A DNA stretch of 33,905 nt, taken from Myxococcota bacterium (GTDB taxonomy: Bacteria > Myxococcota_A > UBA9042 > DTJE01). The stretch is from positions 1 to 33,905 of the forward strand of contig JAGOKF010000039.1 in assembly GCA_017994695.1 (NCBI GenBank). Reading direction: 5' to 3'. Positions 5,990-12,540 of this stretch are shown here, one piece after another. How positions within the stretch are numbered: position 1 is the first letter of the stretch; each line of letters begins with the position of its first letter. The notes beneath the pieces are model-generated. The model ran no database searches, had not been told where the DNA came from, and saw nothing but the letters and a program-made list of their open reading frames with translations. A program made the position numbers and the translations under genes.

Positions 5990-6481
5990 ATGCGGGTCAG
6001 CGCCACCGAGGAGCACGGCCTGAGGTGCCTGATGAGACTGGCCGCCTGCTGGCAGGCCGGCCGGGAGACCACCCTCGGGGAGGTGGCCCGGGAGGAGGGC
6101 CTGACCCTGGCCTACGTCGCGAAACTGGTGGCGCTGCTGCGGAAGGCCGGCCTGGTCCGGAGCCTCCGGGGGGCCCGGGGGGGCATCGTCCTGGCCCGGG
6201 ATCCGCAGCGGATTCCCTTGTCGGAAGCGATGGCGGCCCTGGCGGGACGGGCCGTGCGGACCGGACCGTGCCTGGATGCCGGGCACCCGCCCTGCGGGCA
6301 GGCCGCGTCCTGCGGGTTGCGGCCGGTCTGGATGCGGGTCGAGGAGACCCTGGATGGGATCCTGGGGGGCATCTCCCTGGCGGACGTGGTCCGGGAGGGC
6401 CGGGAGTCGGCCACCCGGCATTTCGGGCGCCCGGGGCGCGACGGGAGGGGTTCGGCAGCATCGGCCGAGGCCGAGGGATGA
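5990..6481 (+). CDS. Rrf2/IscR-family Fe-S-sensing transcriptional regulator of the suf operon
   Basis: The 163-residue protein has the Rrf2 fold. An N-terminal winged helix (ATEEHGLRCLMRLA, then VAREEGLTLAYVAKLVALLRKAGLV) is followed by a wing with RGARGG and a dimerisation helix ending in LRPVWMRVEETLDGIL. Three cysteines sit where IscR and relatives hold a [2Fe-2S] cluster, at C94, C102 and C108, with C-X7-C-X5-C spacing compared with C-X5-C-X5-C in E. coli IscR. The ATG at 5990 has GGGAGAGG six bases upstream. An in-frame TTG at 5933 was rejected because it is the -35 box. The gene sits directly upstream of sufC, with 11 bp between its stop and the sufC ATG, so it most likely senses Fe-S status and controls its own operon. 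The specific name (IscR, SufR or other) cannot be decided. Confidence 0.88.
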   Translation: MRVSATEEHGLRCLMRLAACWQAGRETTLGEVAREEGLTLAYVAKLVALLRKAGLVRSLRGARGGIVLARDPQRIPLSEAMAALAGRAVRTGPCLDAGHPPCGQAASCGLRPVWMRVEETLDGILGGISLADVVREGRESATRHFGRPGRDGRGSAASAEAEG

Positions 6482-6492
6482 GGGGGAGCGAG

Positions 6493-7260
6493 ATGAACGA
6501 GGACCGGCAGGCGGACGTGGAACCCATCCTGGAGGTCCGGGATCTCCGGGCGTCGGTGGGGGATCGGGCGATCCTGAAGGGCGTGGACCTGGCGGTCCGC
6601 CCGGGGGAGGTCCACGCCCTGATGGGGCGCAACGGCAGCGGCAAGAGCACGCTGTCCCACGTGCTGATGGGCCACCCGGCCTACCGGGTGGACGGCGGGG
6701 AGGTGCGGTTCCTGGGTCAAGACCTGCTGGCCATGGACGTCACCGAGCGGGCCCGGGCCGGCTTGTTCCTGGGCTTCCAGCACCCGGTGGCCGTGCCGGG
6801 CGTCACGGTGACCCACTTCCTGCGGAACGTGCTCCGGAGCCGGGGCCGGGACCTGCCGGCCCGGGAGTTCCGGGGGGTGCTTCGGAAGGCCTTCGACGAA
6901 CTGGGCATCGCCGACGAGTTCGCGGGGCGATCGCTGAACGACGGATTCTCGGGCGGCGAGCGGAAGCGCCTGGAGGTGCTCCAGTTGCGGCTGCTGCGCC
7001 CGGCCCTGGCCCTGATGGACGAAACGGACAGCGGGCTGGACATCGACGCCCTGAAGGTCGTCTCCGAGGGGATCAACGCGTCGATCCGCGAGGGGGTGTC
7101 GGTGGTCCTGGTGACCCACTACCAGCGGATCCTCCAGTACGTCCAGCCCCAGGTGGTGCACGTCTTCCTGGACGGCCGGGTGGCCCGGAGCGGCGGGCCG
7201 GACCTGGCCCGGGAACTGGAGGCCCGGGGGTATGACTGGATCGACGCGCCGCAGGCCTGA
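6493..7260 (+). CDS. sufC: Fe-S assembly ATPase SufC
   Basis: SufC is the ABC-type ATPase of the SufBC2D scaffold that builds Fe-S clusters in the cytoplasm. The 255-residue product shows Walker A GRNGSGKS at 45-52, the SufC-type Q-loop region ([11 protein letters not shown]), signature [10 protein letters not shown] from 152, Walker [15 protein letters not shown] from 172, and the H-loop histidine in THYQR (H209). The [10 protein letters not shown] string is typical of SufC rather than transport ATPases, and there is no membrane partner. The ATG at 6493 follows AGGGGGAG. An in-frame ATG at 6478, overlapping the regulator's stop, is an alternative start that would add five residues. Confidence 0.96.
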
Positions 7261-7288: not shown

Positions 7289-8698
7289 ATGGAAGCCACC
7301 GGCGCCGGAACGTTGGTCGGGGAGTACCGGTACGGGTTCCACGACGAGGAGCGCAGCGTCTTCCAGACCCGCCGGGGCCTGGACGAGGAGGTGGTGCGCC
7401 AGGTCAGCGCGATCAAGAACGAGCCGGACTGGATGCTGGAGTTCCGGCTCCGGGCCCTGGGGCTCTTCCAGGCCCGGCCCATGCCCCGCTGGGGCAACAC
7501 CGAGGTGCTGGACGCCATCGACTTCGACCGGATCATCTACTACGCCCGGGCGACCGAGGGCCAGGGGCGGACCTGGGAGGAGGTCCCGGAGGGGATCAAG
7601 CGGACCTTCGAGCGCCTGGGGATCCCCGAGGCCGAGCGGAAGTTCCTGGCCGGGGTCACGGCCCAGTACGACTCCGAGGCGGTGTACCACTCGATCCAGG
7701 CGGAACTGGAGAAGCAGGGGGTGATCTTCCTGGACATGGACTCGGGCCTGCGCCTGCACGGGGACCTGGTCCGCCGGCATTTCGGGACCGTGATCCCCCC
7801 GAACGACAACAAGTTCGCGGCCCTGAACTCGGCCGTGTGGTCCGGGGGGTCCTTCGTCTATGTCCCCCCGGGGGTCCACGTCCGGGTGCCGCTGCAGGCC
7901 TACTTCCGGATCAACACCCGGGACATGGGCCAGTTCGAGCGGACCCTGATCATCGCCGACGAGGGGTCCAGCGTGCACTACATCGAGGGGTGCACGGCGC
8001 CCGTGTGGTCGTCCGACAGCCTCCACTCCGCCGTGGTGGAGGTCATCGCCAAGAAGGGCGCCCGGATCCGCTACACGACGATCCAGAACTGGTCCCGGAA
8101 CGTCCTGAACCTGGTGACGAAGCGGGCCGTGGCCCACGAGGACGCCACGGTGGAATGGGTGGACGGGAACCTGGGGTCCCGCCTGACCATGAAGTACCCG
8201 GCGATCCACCTGGTGGGGCCGAGGGCCCACGGGGAGATCCTCTCCATCGCCTTTGCCGGGGCCGGGCAGCACCAGGACGCTGGCGCGAAGGTGATCCACG
8301 CCGCCCCGGACACCACGTCGTCCATCACCTCGAAGTCCATCAGCAAGGACGGCGGGCGGGCCTCCTACCGGGGGCTCGTGAAGGTCCATCCCGGGGCCCG
8401 GAACGCCCGGGTGAACGTCCGCTGCGACGCCCTGCTGCTGGACGAGCACTCCCGGTCCGACACCTGGCCGACGATGGAGATCGGCGAGGCGGGGGCCGCG
8501 GTGGGCCACGAGGCGACCGTGTCGAAGGTCAGCGAGGAGCAGTTGTACTACCTCCGGAGCCGGGGCCTGACCGAGGCCGAGGCGACGCTGATGATCGTGA
8601 ACGGCTTCATCGAGCCCTTCGTGAAGGAACTGCCGATGGAGTACGCGGTGGAACTGAACCGCCTGATCGCCCTGGAGATGGAGGGATCCGTCGGATGA
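7289..8698 (+). CDS. sufB: Fe-S cluster scaffold protein SufB
   Basis: SufB is the scaffold subunit on which the nascent cluster forms within SufBC2D. The 469-residue product is full length for the family. It carries the beta-helix core and the conserved C-terminal helical region ([17 protein letters not shown]). C379 (NVRCDALLL) matches the E. coli C405 sulfur acceptor, and E408 (GHEATVSKV) sits 29 residues later, exactly the C405-E434 separation. C235 (IEGCTAP) corresponds to the C254 site. The ATG at 7289 follows AAAGGAGG by six bases, the best ribosome site in the operon; an earlier in-frame start would overlap sufC and has no such site. The stop overlaps sufD as ATGA. Confidence 0.97.
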
Positions 8699-9885
8699 AC
8701 GGGATGATCCACGACCGGGAGTGGCGCGACGCCCGCCGGCAGGAGGCCCTGGAGGCCCTGGAGCGCCTGGAGATGCCCTCCCGGGTCGCCCACCGGTGGC
8801 GATTCACGGATCCCTTGGGCCTGATCCCCGGGGGCAGCCTGGCGGCGGCGGCCGGCGGCCCTGGGAACGCTCCGTTGGTGGAGGTGTCCCTGCCTCCGGG
8901 GGCCCGGGATCGGGGGGTCGAGGTCGCGGACCTGGCCCTGGACCGCCAGCCCGCCTTCGTGGCGGAGCACCTGGGACGCCTGTCGCCGGCGGCGGAGGAC
9001 CCGCTGCTGGCCCTGGTCCTGGGGACCCACCGGGGCGGGATCGCCCTGCGGGTCCCGGCCGGAGTGAGGCTCGAGGAACCGATCCGGATCCGGCAGCAGG
9101 CCGCTGCCGCTCCCGGGGGGATGGTGGCGGGCCGGACGCTGGTGGTGCTGGAGGAGGGGGCCCAGGCCGAGGTGCAGGAGGAACTGGAAATCCTGTCGGG
9201 GCACGCCGGGTGGGCCTCCGAGGCGGTGCTGGCCGTGGGCGCCCGCCTGGTGCACCGCCGCCTGGAGCAGGTGGCGCCGGGGGCCGCGGCCTTTGTCCGG
9301 GCGGACTGGGTCCTCCAGGGAAGCGCCTTCCTGGATCACGGCCACGGGGTCCTGTCCCGGGGGCTGCTGAAGTCGGAGGCGTCGGTAGTGATCCGGGGCC
9401 CCGGCGGGGAGGTCCGGGGAAACGCCCTGATCGTCGCCGGGGACCGGGCCCGGGCGGACTGGCGGGTCACGGTGGAGCACCGGGCGGGGGACACCCGGAG
9501 CCGGCAGACGGTCCGGGCGGCGGCGGCCCGGAAGGCCCGGGCGGCCTTCACGGGGCTGCTGGAGATCGCCCCGGGCGCCCGGGGGAGCGAGGCCTTCGAG
9601 GAGGCCCGGGGTCTGATCTGGGACCCGACGGCCACGGTGGACCTGCTGCCGGAACTGGAAATCCGCAACCACGACGTCCGGTGTTCCCACGGGGCCGCGG
9701 TGGCCCCCCTGGATGACGAGGCCCTGTTCTACCTCCAGAGCCGCGGACTGGACCGGCAGGCGGCCCGGAGGCTGCAACTCGAGGGGTTCCTCCGGGGCGT
9801 GCTGGAGGATTCCCCGGCGGGCGAGGAGTGGCTGGAGCGGGCCTGGGCCCTCCTGGCGGACGGTGCCTCGGGAGGCAAGGCATGA
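8695..9885 (+). CDS. sufD: Fe-S assembly scaffold subunit SufD
   Basis: SufD is the SufB paralogue that completes SufBC2D and is involved in iron entry. The 396-residue product has the beta-helix core and the closing motif [17 protein letters not shown]. Within it, H332 in CSHGA corresponds to the histidine known to matter in E. coli SufD (H360). The C-terminal helices ([18 protein letters not shown]) resemble SufB, as expected. The start ATG overlaps the sufB stop and a GAGGGA lies eight bases upstream. The stop in turn overlaps the ferredoxin ATG. The first 50 residues are divergent, as is usual for SufD. Confidence 0.93.
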
Positions 9886-10193
9886 GGACGATCGACCTGG
9901 GTTCCCTGGACGACTGGCGGGACGGCGAGGGCCGTCGGGTCCCGGCGGGGGACGAGGAGGTCCTCGTGGTCCGGGTCGGAAACCGGCTGCTGGCGGTGGG
10001 GGCCTTCTGCAGCCACGAGGAACTGCCCCTGGCAGGGGGGCGCCTGGTGGGGGAGGACCTCTGGGAGTGTCCCCACCACGGAGGCCGGATCTGCCTGTCC
10101 ACCGGGGCGCCGGCCGGGATGCCCGTGTCGGCCCCGGTGGCGACCTTTCCGGTCCGGGAGGCGGGCGGCCGCTTCGTGCTGGAAATGGAGTAG
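9882..10193 (+). CDS. Rieske-type [2Fe-2S] ferredoxin in the suf operon
   Basis: The 103-residue protein is a single Rieske domain. The first ligand pair is CSH and the second CPHH, 17 residues later, giving the C-X-H...C-X2-H ligand pattern. There is no signal peptide or membrane segment, so this is a small soluble ferredoxin resembling those of aromatic dioxygenase systems or NirD. The ATG overlaps the sufD stop (ATGA), so it is translated with the scaffold. Known suf operons in several phyla carry such a gene, and a role in supplying electrons for cluster assembly or sulfur reduction is inferred rather than shown. No oxygenase gene is nearby. Confidence 0.9.
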   Translation: MRTIDLGSLDDWRDGEGRRVPAGDEEVLVVRVGNRLLAVGAFCSHEELPLAGGRLVGEDLWECPHHGGRICLSTGAPAGMPVSAPVATFPVREAGGRFVLEME

Positions 10194-10199
10194 CGGGCG

Positions 10200-11936
10200 A
10201 TGTGGGACGTCGAGGCGATTCGCCGGGAGTTCCCCATCCTGGAGAGGCCGGTCGCCGGCCAAAGGCTGGTGTATCTGGACAGCGCGGCGACCTCCCAGAA
10301 GCCTCGGGGGGTGCTGGAGGCCATCCGGCGGCACTTCGAGCAGTCCAACGCCAACGTCCACCGGGGGGTCCACCGGCTGTCCGAGGAGTCCACGGAGGCC
10401 TACGAGGAGGCCCGGCGGGCCGTGGCCCGATTCCTGGGCGCCGCCGGCCCGGAGAGCCTCGTCTTCGTCCGCAATGCCACCGAGGCCATCAACCTGGTGG
10501 CCCATGCCTACGGGGACCGCCACCTGGCACCCGGGGACGAGGTGCTGGTGTCGGAGATGGAGCACCACTCGAACCTGGTCCCGTGGTTCCTGCTGGCCCG
10601 GCGCACCGGGGCCCGGGTCCGGGCCGTCCCGGTGTCCGACGAGGGACTGCTGGATCTGGGGGCGATCCAGGGGGCCCTCGGGGAGGGCCGGGTGCGGCTG
10701 GTGGCCCTGGCGGCCGTGTCGAACGTCCTGGGAACCCGGAACCCCCTGTCGGACATCGCCCGGTGGGCCCACGACGCCGGGGCCGTGCTGCTGGTCGATG
10801 CCGCCCAGGCCGTGCCCCACCTGCCCGTCCGGTTCCGGGATTCCGGGGCGGACTTCCTGGCCTTTTCGGGACACAAGGCCCTGGGCCCGATGGGGATCGG
10901 GGGACTGCTGGTGCGTCCCGAACTCTACGACCGGATGGACCCGTTCCTGGGCGGCGGCGAGATGATCCGGGAGGTGACCCTGGAGGGCGCCACCTGGGCC
11001 GACCCGCCGCACCGGTTCGAAGCGGGGACGCCCGACGTGGCCGGGGCCGTCGGCCTGCGGGCCGCCGTGGAGTACCTGGAGTCCCTGGGCATGGAGGCGG
11101 TGGCGGACCACGCCCTGCGACTGGGGACCTACGCCCGCCAGCGCCTGCGGGAAATCCCCGGGATCCGGCTGCTGGGCCCCGAGCCGGGCCCGGTGGCGAC
11201 CGGCAGTGTCGTGACCTTCGACCTCGAGGGGATCCATCCCCACGACATCGCCCAGGGCCTCGACCGGCGGGGCATCGCGGTCCGGGCGGGCCACCATTGC
11301 TGCCAGCCCCTGCACCGGCGCCTGGGACTTCCGGCCACGACCCGGGCCTCGTTCCACGTCTTCAACGGCGAGGACGACGTGGACGCCCTGGTGGAAGCCC
11401 TCGGGGAGGTCCGGCGGGAGATGACCGCCCCTGTCGTCGGCGCGTCCCTTGGCGATCGGGACTCCGAGCCCGCAGACGCCCTGTTCCGGGAGGTCGTGAT
11501 GGACCACTACCTCCACCCTGCCGGCCGGGAACCCCTGGAGGATGCCACGGTGGAATGGGAGGGCCAAAACCCCCTCTGCGGGGACCACGTCCACCTGCGG
11601 ATGCGCCTGGAAGGGGACCGGATCGCGGCGATCCAGGTCCTCGGGGAGGGCTGCTCGATCAGCGTGGCCTCGGGGTCGATGATGGCGGATCACCTGAAGG
11701 GTCGCACGCTGGAGGAGGCCCGGCGGCTGCTGGCGGCGGTCCGGGCGATGTTCCGGGGGGAACCCCTTCCCGGGAACCTGGACCTGGGGGACGTGAAGGT
11801 GCTCGAGGGCGTCCGGGAACTCCCGGTGCGGGTCAAGTGCGCGCTGCTGGCCTGGACGACGGCCGAGGAGGGACTCCGGCGGGTCCCGGCGGAATCGGAC
11901 GATGGGGGACGGGAGGTGTCCGATGGCCACGCGTGA
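10200..11936 (+). CDS. SufS-SufU fusion: cysteine desulfurase with C-terminal sulfur-acceptor domain
   Basis: The 578-residue product joins two enzymes normally encoded separately. Residues 1 to about 408 are a class V PLP-dependent cysteine desulfurase (SufS): EMEHHSN with the ring-stacking H123, LVDAAQ, the PLP lysine K226 in SGHK, and the sulfur-accepting C367 in RAGHHCCQP. Here Cys368 replaces the Ala usual in RAGHHCAQP. After a roughly 16-residue linker, residues 425-560 are SufU. The four zinc ligands are C460, D462, C485 and C547. Their spacing (CxD, then 25 and 62 residues) equals that of B. subtilis SufU C41/D43/C66/C128. SufU accepts the persulfide from SufS by zinc-ligand exchange, so the fusion would tether donor and acceptor. 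The ATG is six bases after the ferredoxin stop. Confidence 0.93.
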   Translation: MWDVEAIRREFPILERPVAGQRLVYLDSAATSQKPRGVLEAIRRHFEQSNANVHRGVHRLSEESTEAYEEARRAVARFLGAAGPESLVFVRNATEAINLVAHAYGDRHLAPGDEVLVSEMEHHSNLVPWFLLARRTGARVRAVPVSDEGLLDLGAIQGALGEGRVRLVALAAVSNVLGTRNPLSDIARWAHDAGAVLLVDAAQAVPHLPVRFRDSGADFLAFSGHKALGPMGIGGLLVRPELYDRMDPFLGGGEMIREVTLEGATWADPPHRFEAGTPDVAGAVGLRAAVEYLESLGMEAVADHALRLGTYARQRLREIPGIRLLGPEPGPVATGSVVTFDLEGIHPHDIAQGLDRRGIAVRAGHHCCQPLHRRLGLPATTRASFHVFNGEDDVDALVEALGEVRREMTAPVVGASLGDRDSEPADALFREVVMDHYLHPAGREPLEDATVEWEGQNPLCGDHVHLRMRLEGDRIAAIQVLGEGCSISVASGSMMADHLKGRTLEEARRLLAAVRAMFRGEPLPGNLDLGDVKVLEGVRELPVRVKCALLAWTTAEEGLRRVPAESDDGGREVSDGHA

Positions 11937-12540
11937 GGCGATCTACGAGGCCCTGTCGCGGGTGATCGAGCCCGGGACGGGATGCAGCATCACGGACCTG
12001 GGGCTCGTGCTGGACGTGGACCTGGACTCCGAGGGGCGCAGCACCGTGGTGAAGGTGGCCCAGGTGCCCCTGGCCCGGCGGCTGGTCCGGCCGATCCGGG
12101 AGGCGCTGGAATCCCTCGGGGACCTGGAGGATGGCCGCCTGGAGTTCGTCCGGGACCCTCCCTGGGTGCCCGAGGCGATGGCGACCCCCGAGGCCCGGCA
12201 GGCCCTGGCGGAGGCCGAGCGGCGTCCCGGGGCGCCGGCGGACCTGGAGGAGGTGCGGGCGCTGGTCGGGGAGGTCCTGGACCCGGAACTGGGATACTCC
12301 CTGGGCGACCTGGGGCTCATCTACGGGGTCGAACTGGACGGGGAAGGGCGGAAGGCCTTCGTCCGGATGACCCTGACCTCCCCCATGTGTCCCGTCGGGC
12401 CCTACCTGGTGGAGGCGGTCCGCCATGCGGCCCTGCTGGCCCGCGGTCTCGAGGATGCCTCGGTGGAACTGGTCTGGGATCCCCCCTGGGACCCCCGGAC
12501 GATGGCCTCGGAGGACGTCCGCATGGACCTGGGGATCTGA
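11923..12540 (+). CDS. SufT-like protein with tandem MIP18/DUF59 domains, first copy degenerate
   Basis: The 205-residue protein contains two MIP18 (DUF59) domains. The C-terminal copy (about 110-205) is canonical: LDPELGYSLGDLGLIYGVEL, then MTLTSPMCPVG with the key cysteine C156, and VWDPPWDP. The N-terminal copy (about 5-88) has the same frame (ITDLGLVLDVDL and FVRDPPWVPEAM). Where TSPMCPVG should be it reads VPLARRLV, so the conserved cysteine is lost. DUF59 proteins such as SufT assist Fe-S maturation or transfer, and the operon position supports this. The ATG at 11923 follows GGGAGGTG by six bases and overlaps the fused desulfurase gene by 14 bases. It is the last suf gene. Confidence 0.85.
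   Translation: MATREAIYEALSRVIEPGTGCSITDLGLVLDVDLDSEGRSTVVKVAQVPLARRLVRPIREALESLGDLEDGRLEFVRDPPWVPEAMATPEARQALAEAERRPGAPADLEEVRALVGEVLDPELGYSLGDLGLIYGVELDGEGRKAFVRMTLTSPMCPVGPYLVEAVRHAALLARGLEDASVELVWDPPWDPRTMASEDVRMDLGI

Follow-up and report, generated by a model that had tools for sequence, protein, structure and literature searches.

A gene of a Myxococcota bacterium encodes SufS and SufU in one polypeptide. We consider it very likely that the product is a SufS cysteine desulfurase with its own C-terminal SufU sulfurtransferase, and that the gene arose, probably once in a Myxococcota ancestor, by loss of the stop codon between sufS and sufU. The gene, sufSU, occupies positions 10200..11936 of the plus strand of the window, that is, the whole 33,905-nucleotide stretch analyzed here. 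In other bacteria, SufS and SufU are separate proteins that meet only briefly. SufS pulls sulfur off cysteine, and SufU, a small zinc protein, carries the sulfur to iron-sulfur clusters. Because the partners normally meet so briefly, the hand-over between them is hard to capture. A natural fusion with a fixed 1:1 ratio offers a tool for trapping the zinc-ligand swap and persulfide transfer, is useful for confirming the SufS-SufU pairing, and allows one to ask whether sulfur delivery to SufBCD requires SufU to come off SufS. It also illustrates how abutting operon genes turn into one protein. The fusion brings no new chemistry, and the SufS and SufU parts are themselves ordinary; it is their joining that appears to be undescribed, as no description of a SufS-SufU fusion was found within the literature searched.

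Domain Organization of SufSU

The sufSU open reading frame runs from an ATG to a TGA, has no internal stops, and encodes 578 amino acid residues. Pfam matches divide the protein into an Aminotran_5 segment (residues 24–397) and a NifU_N segment (residues 430–511). The SufS domain, residues 1–409 (10200..11426, plus strand), is delimited by alignment to 5xt5_A and by the end of its last helix at residue 409. It matches TIGR01979 over residues 6–406 with 523 bits, against a curated NCBIfam cut-off of 475. The SufU domain, residues 425–560 (11472..11879, plus strand), is delimited by alignment to 5xt5_D and matches TIGR01994 over residues 426–559 with 143 bits, against a curated cut-off of 92.5. 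With both matches above cut-off, the preliminary description of the DNA, which had placed SufS and SufU in one chain, is borne out. Since the SufU segment is not free-standing and shares a frame with SufS, it is classed as the SufU part of a fusion protein and not as a classical SufU.

The two domains are joined by a linker of about 15 residues, 410–424 (11427..11471, plus strand), close to the 16 estimated earlier. In the AlphaFold2 model, it separates a helix spanning residues 391–409 from one starting at residue 425, and most of it is modeled with low confidence. Linker length and sequence differ among the fused proteins described below, and no motif shared by the nine linkers is evident.

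The AlphaFold2 model has two confidently predicted domains, with a pLDDT of 90 and a pTM of 0.88, from an alignment of which 22 of 31 rows are separate genes read through the stop; a control with only the nine natural fusions, too shallow an alignment to judge docking by, gave a pLDDT of 75 and a pTM of 0.69. Among solved structures, those nearest to the first part are SufS enzymes, and the one nearest to the second is B. subtilis SufU. The top Foldseek match of the model is 5xt5_A, the SufS chain in the complex of B. subtilis SufS with SufU, to which the SufS domain is 45% identical, with a Z of 59 and an rmsd of 1.1 over 405 residues. The rows of the structural alignment span residues 1–414, and the SufU fold is assigned from sequence.

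Distribution and Origin of the Fusion

One-frame sufSU orthologues are found in nine genomes belonging to two families of a single Myxococcota order. Besides the window's genome, seven belong to its family, and G013 belongs to the second. The copy closest to that of the window, at 86% identity, lies on a 436-kb contig, JAKPOP010000017.1, of a Deltaproteobacteria MAG placed in Myxococcota. Between these two copies, both halves of the protein are under purifying selection (dN/dS of 0.18 for SufS and 0.20 for SufU), and the linker evolves faster than the domains at both kinds of site. The presence of one-frame orthologues in nine genomes, together with purifying selection on both halves, excludes chance or artefact as the source of the fusion. 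Some features of the data would suit an error of sequencing or assembly that merged two adjacent genes: the source genome (4.0 Mb, 97% complete) is fragmented into 158 contigs, the window being contig 79, and sufS commonly lies next to sufU, often with both in the same frame, so that one lost stop would suffice. However, eight further genomes of the order carry the join, also free of a stop and with different linkers, one of them on the 436-kb contig. Given the same join in independent assemblies, we reject a merging error, whose probability is negligible, and with it the frameshift or misassembly that the preliminary description had named as able to undo its claim.

In a sample of 379 genomes from across the phylum, a stop-free match across both domains occurs in nine, all of the one order; in a few further genomes, the two genes share a frame but are separated by a stop. 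Other phyla were covered through the best 80 loci obtained on scanning 84,980 species and the best 15 plasmid records, and similar fusions may exist there. The JAKPOP locus is the only fusion among those 80 loci, most of the others having separate sufS and sufU, and none of the 15 plasmid records has a stop-free fusion, all being in two pieces. Across the phylum sample, these 80 loci, and the literature searched, there was thus no sign of an architecture that is widespread and already characterized, which was the other ground on which the earlier observation could have fallen. The nearest fusions in that literature are a SufS-CysH fusion of archaea and the natural cysteine desulfurase-rhodanese fusion of Pseudorhodoferax, which was shown to be bifunctional (PMC8931425). 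The latter is likewise a desulfurase naturally fused to a sulfurtransferase, but its partner is a rhodanese (PMC8931425), whereas here it is the zinc-dependent SufU.

Relatives with separate genes keep sufS and sufU adjacent. Among such adjacent pairs, 26 of 94 are in the same frame; therefore, loss of a single stop could give the fusion. A single origin is supported by the SufS tree, in which the nine fused proteins form one clade (SH-aLRT 99). In the SufU tree, the eight copies of the main family group together (100/99), and G013, the most divergent, is placed without firm support. Five other members of the family have no match to SufB or SufD, and the genomes of two of these have a completeness of only 68 and 82%. 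Loss of the SUF system is likely in G002 and G003, as these genomes are 95 and 97% complete yet lack a SufB or SufD match. A NifU_N protein is present in G002, G003, G004, and G009, family members without a SUF match.

Catalytic and Zinc-Binding Residues

The residues expected of a working desulfurase and its zinc partner are invariant in all nine fused proteins: the PLP lysine, Lys226; the catalytic cysteine, Cys367, in the motif R-x-G-H-H-C; the HPHD segment, 346–349, containing His346, His348, and Asp349; and the SufU zinc ligands Cys460, Asp462, Cys485, and Cys547. Also invariant in the fused clade are Arg544 and the Gly that separates Cys460 from Asp462. In alignment to 5xt5_D, the ligands, Cys-x-Asp, Cys, and Cys, have the same spacing as in B. 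subtilis SufU. Both the retention of the six catalytic and ligand residues and this spacing had been read correctly from the sequence at the outset. His348 is the histidine of a SufU-type partner, at the position of His354 of M. tuberculosis SufS. E. coli SufS has a Tyr at that position.

Among the known systems closest to the fusion are two SufS-SufU pairs with solved structures. With B. subtilis (5xt5), it shares the SufU ligand spacing and the zinc-swap His in addition to the related SufS domain; the differences are that there are two proteins there and one chain here, and that the conserved Tyr of B. subtilis SufU is Phe in the fusion. For M. tuberculosis (8odq, 9ddd; PMC10216065), the interface residues His352, His354, Asp355, Arg368, Gly370, and His371 of SufS and, on the SufU side, Cys40, Gly41, Asp42, Gly66, Cys67, Ser68, Arg128, and Cys131 are, by motif, identical in the fusion.

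The preliminary description also drew attention to Cys368, next to the catalytic Cys, as unusual. It is indeed uncommon, as 6 among about 108 loci with a separate SufS have Cys there, but it is no hallmark of the fusion, since it varies within the clade (Cys in 6 of 9 fused proteins). The most divergent fusion, that of G013 (locus L012), has a very short linker, an Asp for His365, and a Lys for Ser486, and it retains every zinc ligand.

A Proposed Model for Sulfur Transfer by SufSU

By analogy, SufSU is most likely a tethered desulfurase-sulfurtransferase that acts like the SufS-SufU pairs of B. subtilis and M. tuberculosis, and it is from these pairs that we infer its chemistry and zinc-ligand swap. 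In M. tuberculosis, the SufU zinc exchanges Cys40 for SufS His354, which frees Cys40 to take up the persulfide (PMC10216065). The same swap is expected here because Cys460 and His348, which correspond to these two residues, do not vary among the nine fusions. The proposed sequence of events is as follows. The PLP enzyme, through Lys226, would take sulfur from cysteine and place it on Cys367, forming a persulfide. The SufU domain, held by its tether, would dock at the SufS active site, and its zinc would trade the ligand Cys460 for SufS His348. The freed Cys460 would then accept the sulfur and hand it to SufB, part of the SufBCD scaffold that the upstream genes encode. The transfer from SufS to SufU would take place within one chain, or across the SufS dimer, with delivery to SufBCD while SufU is tethered.

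The fusion departs from the known complexes at the SufU N-terminus. In the M. tuberculosis complex, SufU Leu5 and Tyr9 contact SufS and are reported to be strictly conserved, and the N-terminal Tyr makes a hydrogen bond to SufS (PMC10216065). In M. tuberculosis, SufS and SufU are separate; in the window protein, the equivalents of Leu5 and Tyr9 are Ala425 and Phe429. Position 429 is Tyr in none of the nine fused proteins, which have Phe, Asp, Met, or Ala, versus 95 of 99 separate SufUs, and the Leu5-equivalent position is Leu in 0/9. The lost contacts map exactly where the free SufU N-terminus became linker. These two positions are contacts and not part of the chemistry of the SufU family. The tether would give a high local concentration of SufU and a 1:1 stoichiometry, so the partners would not need to search for one another, and drift could affect the docking residues of the SufU N-terminus. 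It is as if the tether stood in for the lost Tyr contact, holding the partner close and making the docking contacts less needed, judging from the sequences of this single clade. The lost Tyr may instead be drift shared by one clade rather than an adaptation to the tether.

The missing Leu5 and Tyr9 contacts would also fit a fused SufU that is no sulfurtransferase at all, acting only as an allosteric activator of SufS or as an Fe-S scaffold. U-type proteins serve as scaffolds in other systems (IscU, NifU), which lends this reading a precedent. However, the three zinc Cys residues, the Asp, the intervening Gly, and Arg544 are all invariant in the clade, and the fused SufU is the sole SufU of the window's genome, so we regard such a role as highly improbable. 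In G013, there is no NifU_N protein besides the fused copy, which is thus the only U-type protein found there.

A cell might also obtain separate SufS and SufU from the fused gene through proteolysis of the linker or an internal start. The linker is predicted to be unstructured in the AlphaFold2 model, and codon 408 of the window gene is an in-frame ATG right after a GGAG. This start, however, is not conserved: the linker region of G007 offers no start, and G006 has only a GTG within the SufS end, so a conserved internal start for a free SufU was rejected. The linkers have no evident common motif, and a permanent tether is the better fit for a SufU N-terminus that has lost docking residues. 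We therefore think it unlikely that the halves work apart and favor the tethered enzyme. It is tempting to go further and propose that SufU is no longer a diffusible shuttle: permanently tethered, and with its N-terminal docking segment now a linker, it would pass sulfur to SufBCD only when the whole SufSU dimer docks onto that scaffold. We offer this extension tentatively, at somewhat less than even odds. If true, the path from cysteine to cluster would form one continuous assembly line.

The suf Operon and Its Genomic Context

The genes of the operon are in the order rrf2-sufC-sufB-sufD-Rieske-sufSU-sufT, all on the plus strand. The first encodes an Rrf2-family regulator (5990..6481; PF02082, TIGR00738). 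By analogy with M. xanthus RisR, it is possibly Fe-S sensing, as it has three clustered Cys residues (PCLDAGHPPCGQAASC). It is followed by the SufC ATPase (6493..7260; TIGR01978 above cut-off), the SufB scaffold (7289..8698, with an alternative start at 7232; TIGR01980 above cut-off), and SufD (8695..9885; PF01458, with TIGR01981 under cut-off). A Rieske-type [2Fe-2S] ferredoxin (9882..10193; PF00355, CxH...CxxH) precedes sufSU, and a SufT-like protein with matches to two FeS_assembly_P (DUF59) domains (11923..12540) overlaps its end. The order rrf2-C-B-D-(Rieske)-SU is kept in 7/7 fused loci examined, and in all seven except L146, there is a SufT match downstream of sufSU.

The SUF operon of Myxococcus xanthus, risR-sufBCDSUT, has separate sufS and sufU (PMC9973013). 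It belongs to the same phylum, is likewise headed by an Rrf2 regulator, ends S-U-T, and shares its genome with a second Fe-S system. In contrast to the window, its order is B-C rather than C-B, the published operon has no Rieske gene, and its second system is ISC (PMC9973013), whereas that of the window's genome is NifS/NifU. The latter is found on contig 72 (L002, L167), where a NifS lies beside a NifU-like protein with a full-length TIGR02000 match below cut-off.

Most members of the fused clade have a Rieske ferredoxin gene between sufD and sufSU, and one is also found in some operons with separate genes (L045, L085); it is unmatched in the fused loci of G007 and G013. The putative Rieske ferredoxin could supply electrons for cluster assembly. 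In the SufT-like protein, the second DUF59 domain keeps the TSPMCP motif, while the first has AQVPLA, without Cys. The SufT match is double-length in G001, G011, and G008 and single-length in G007 and G013.
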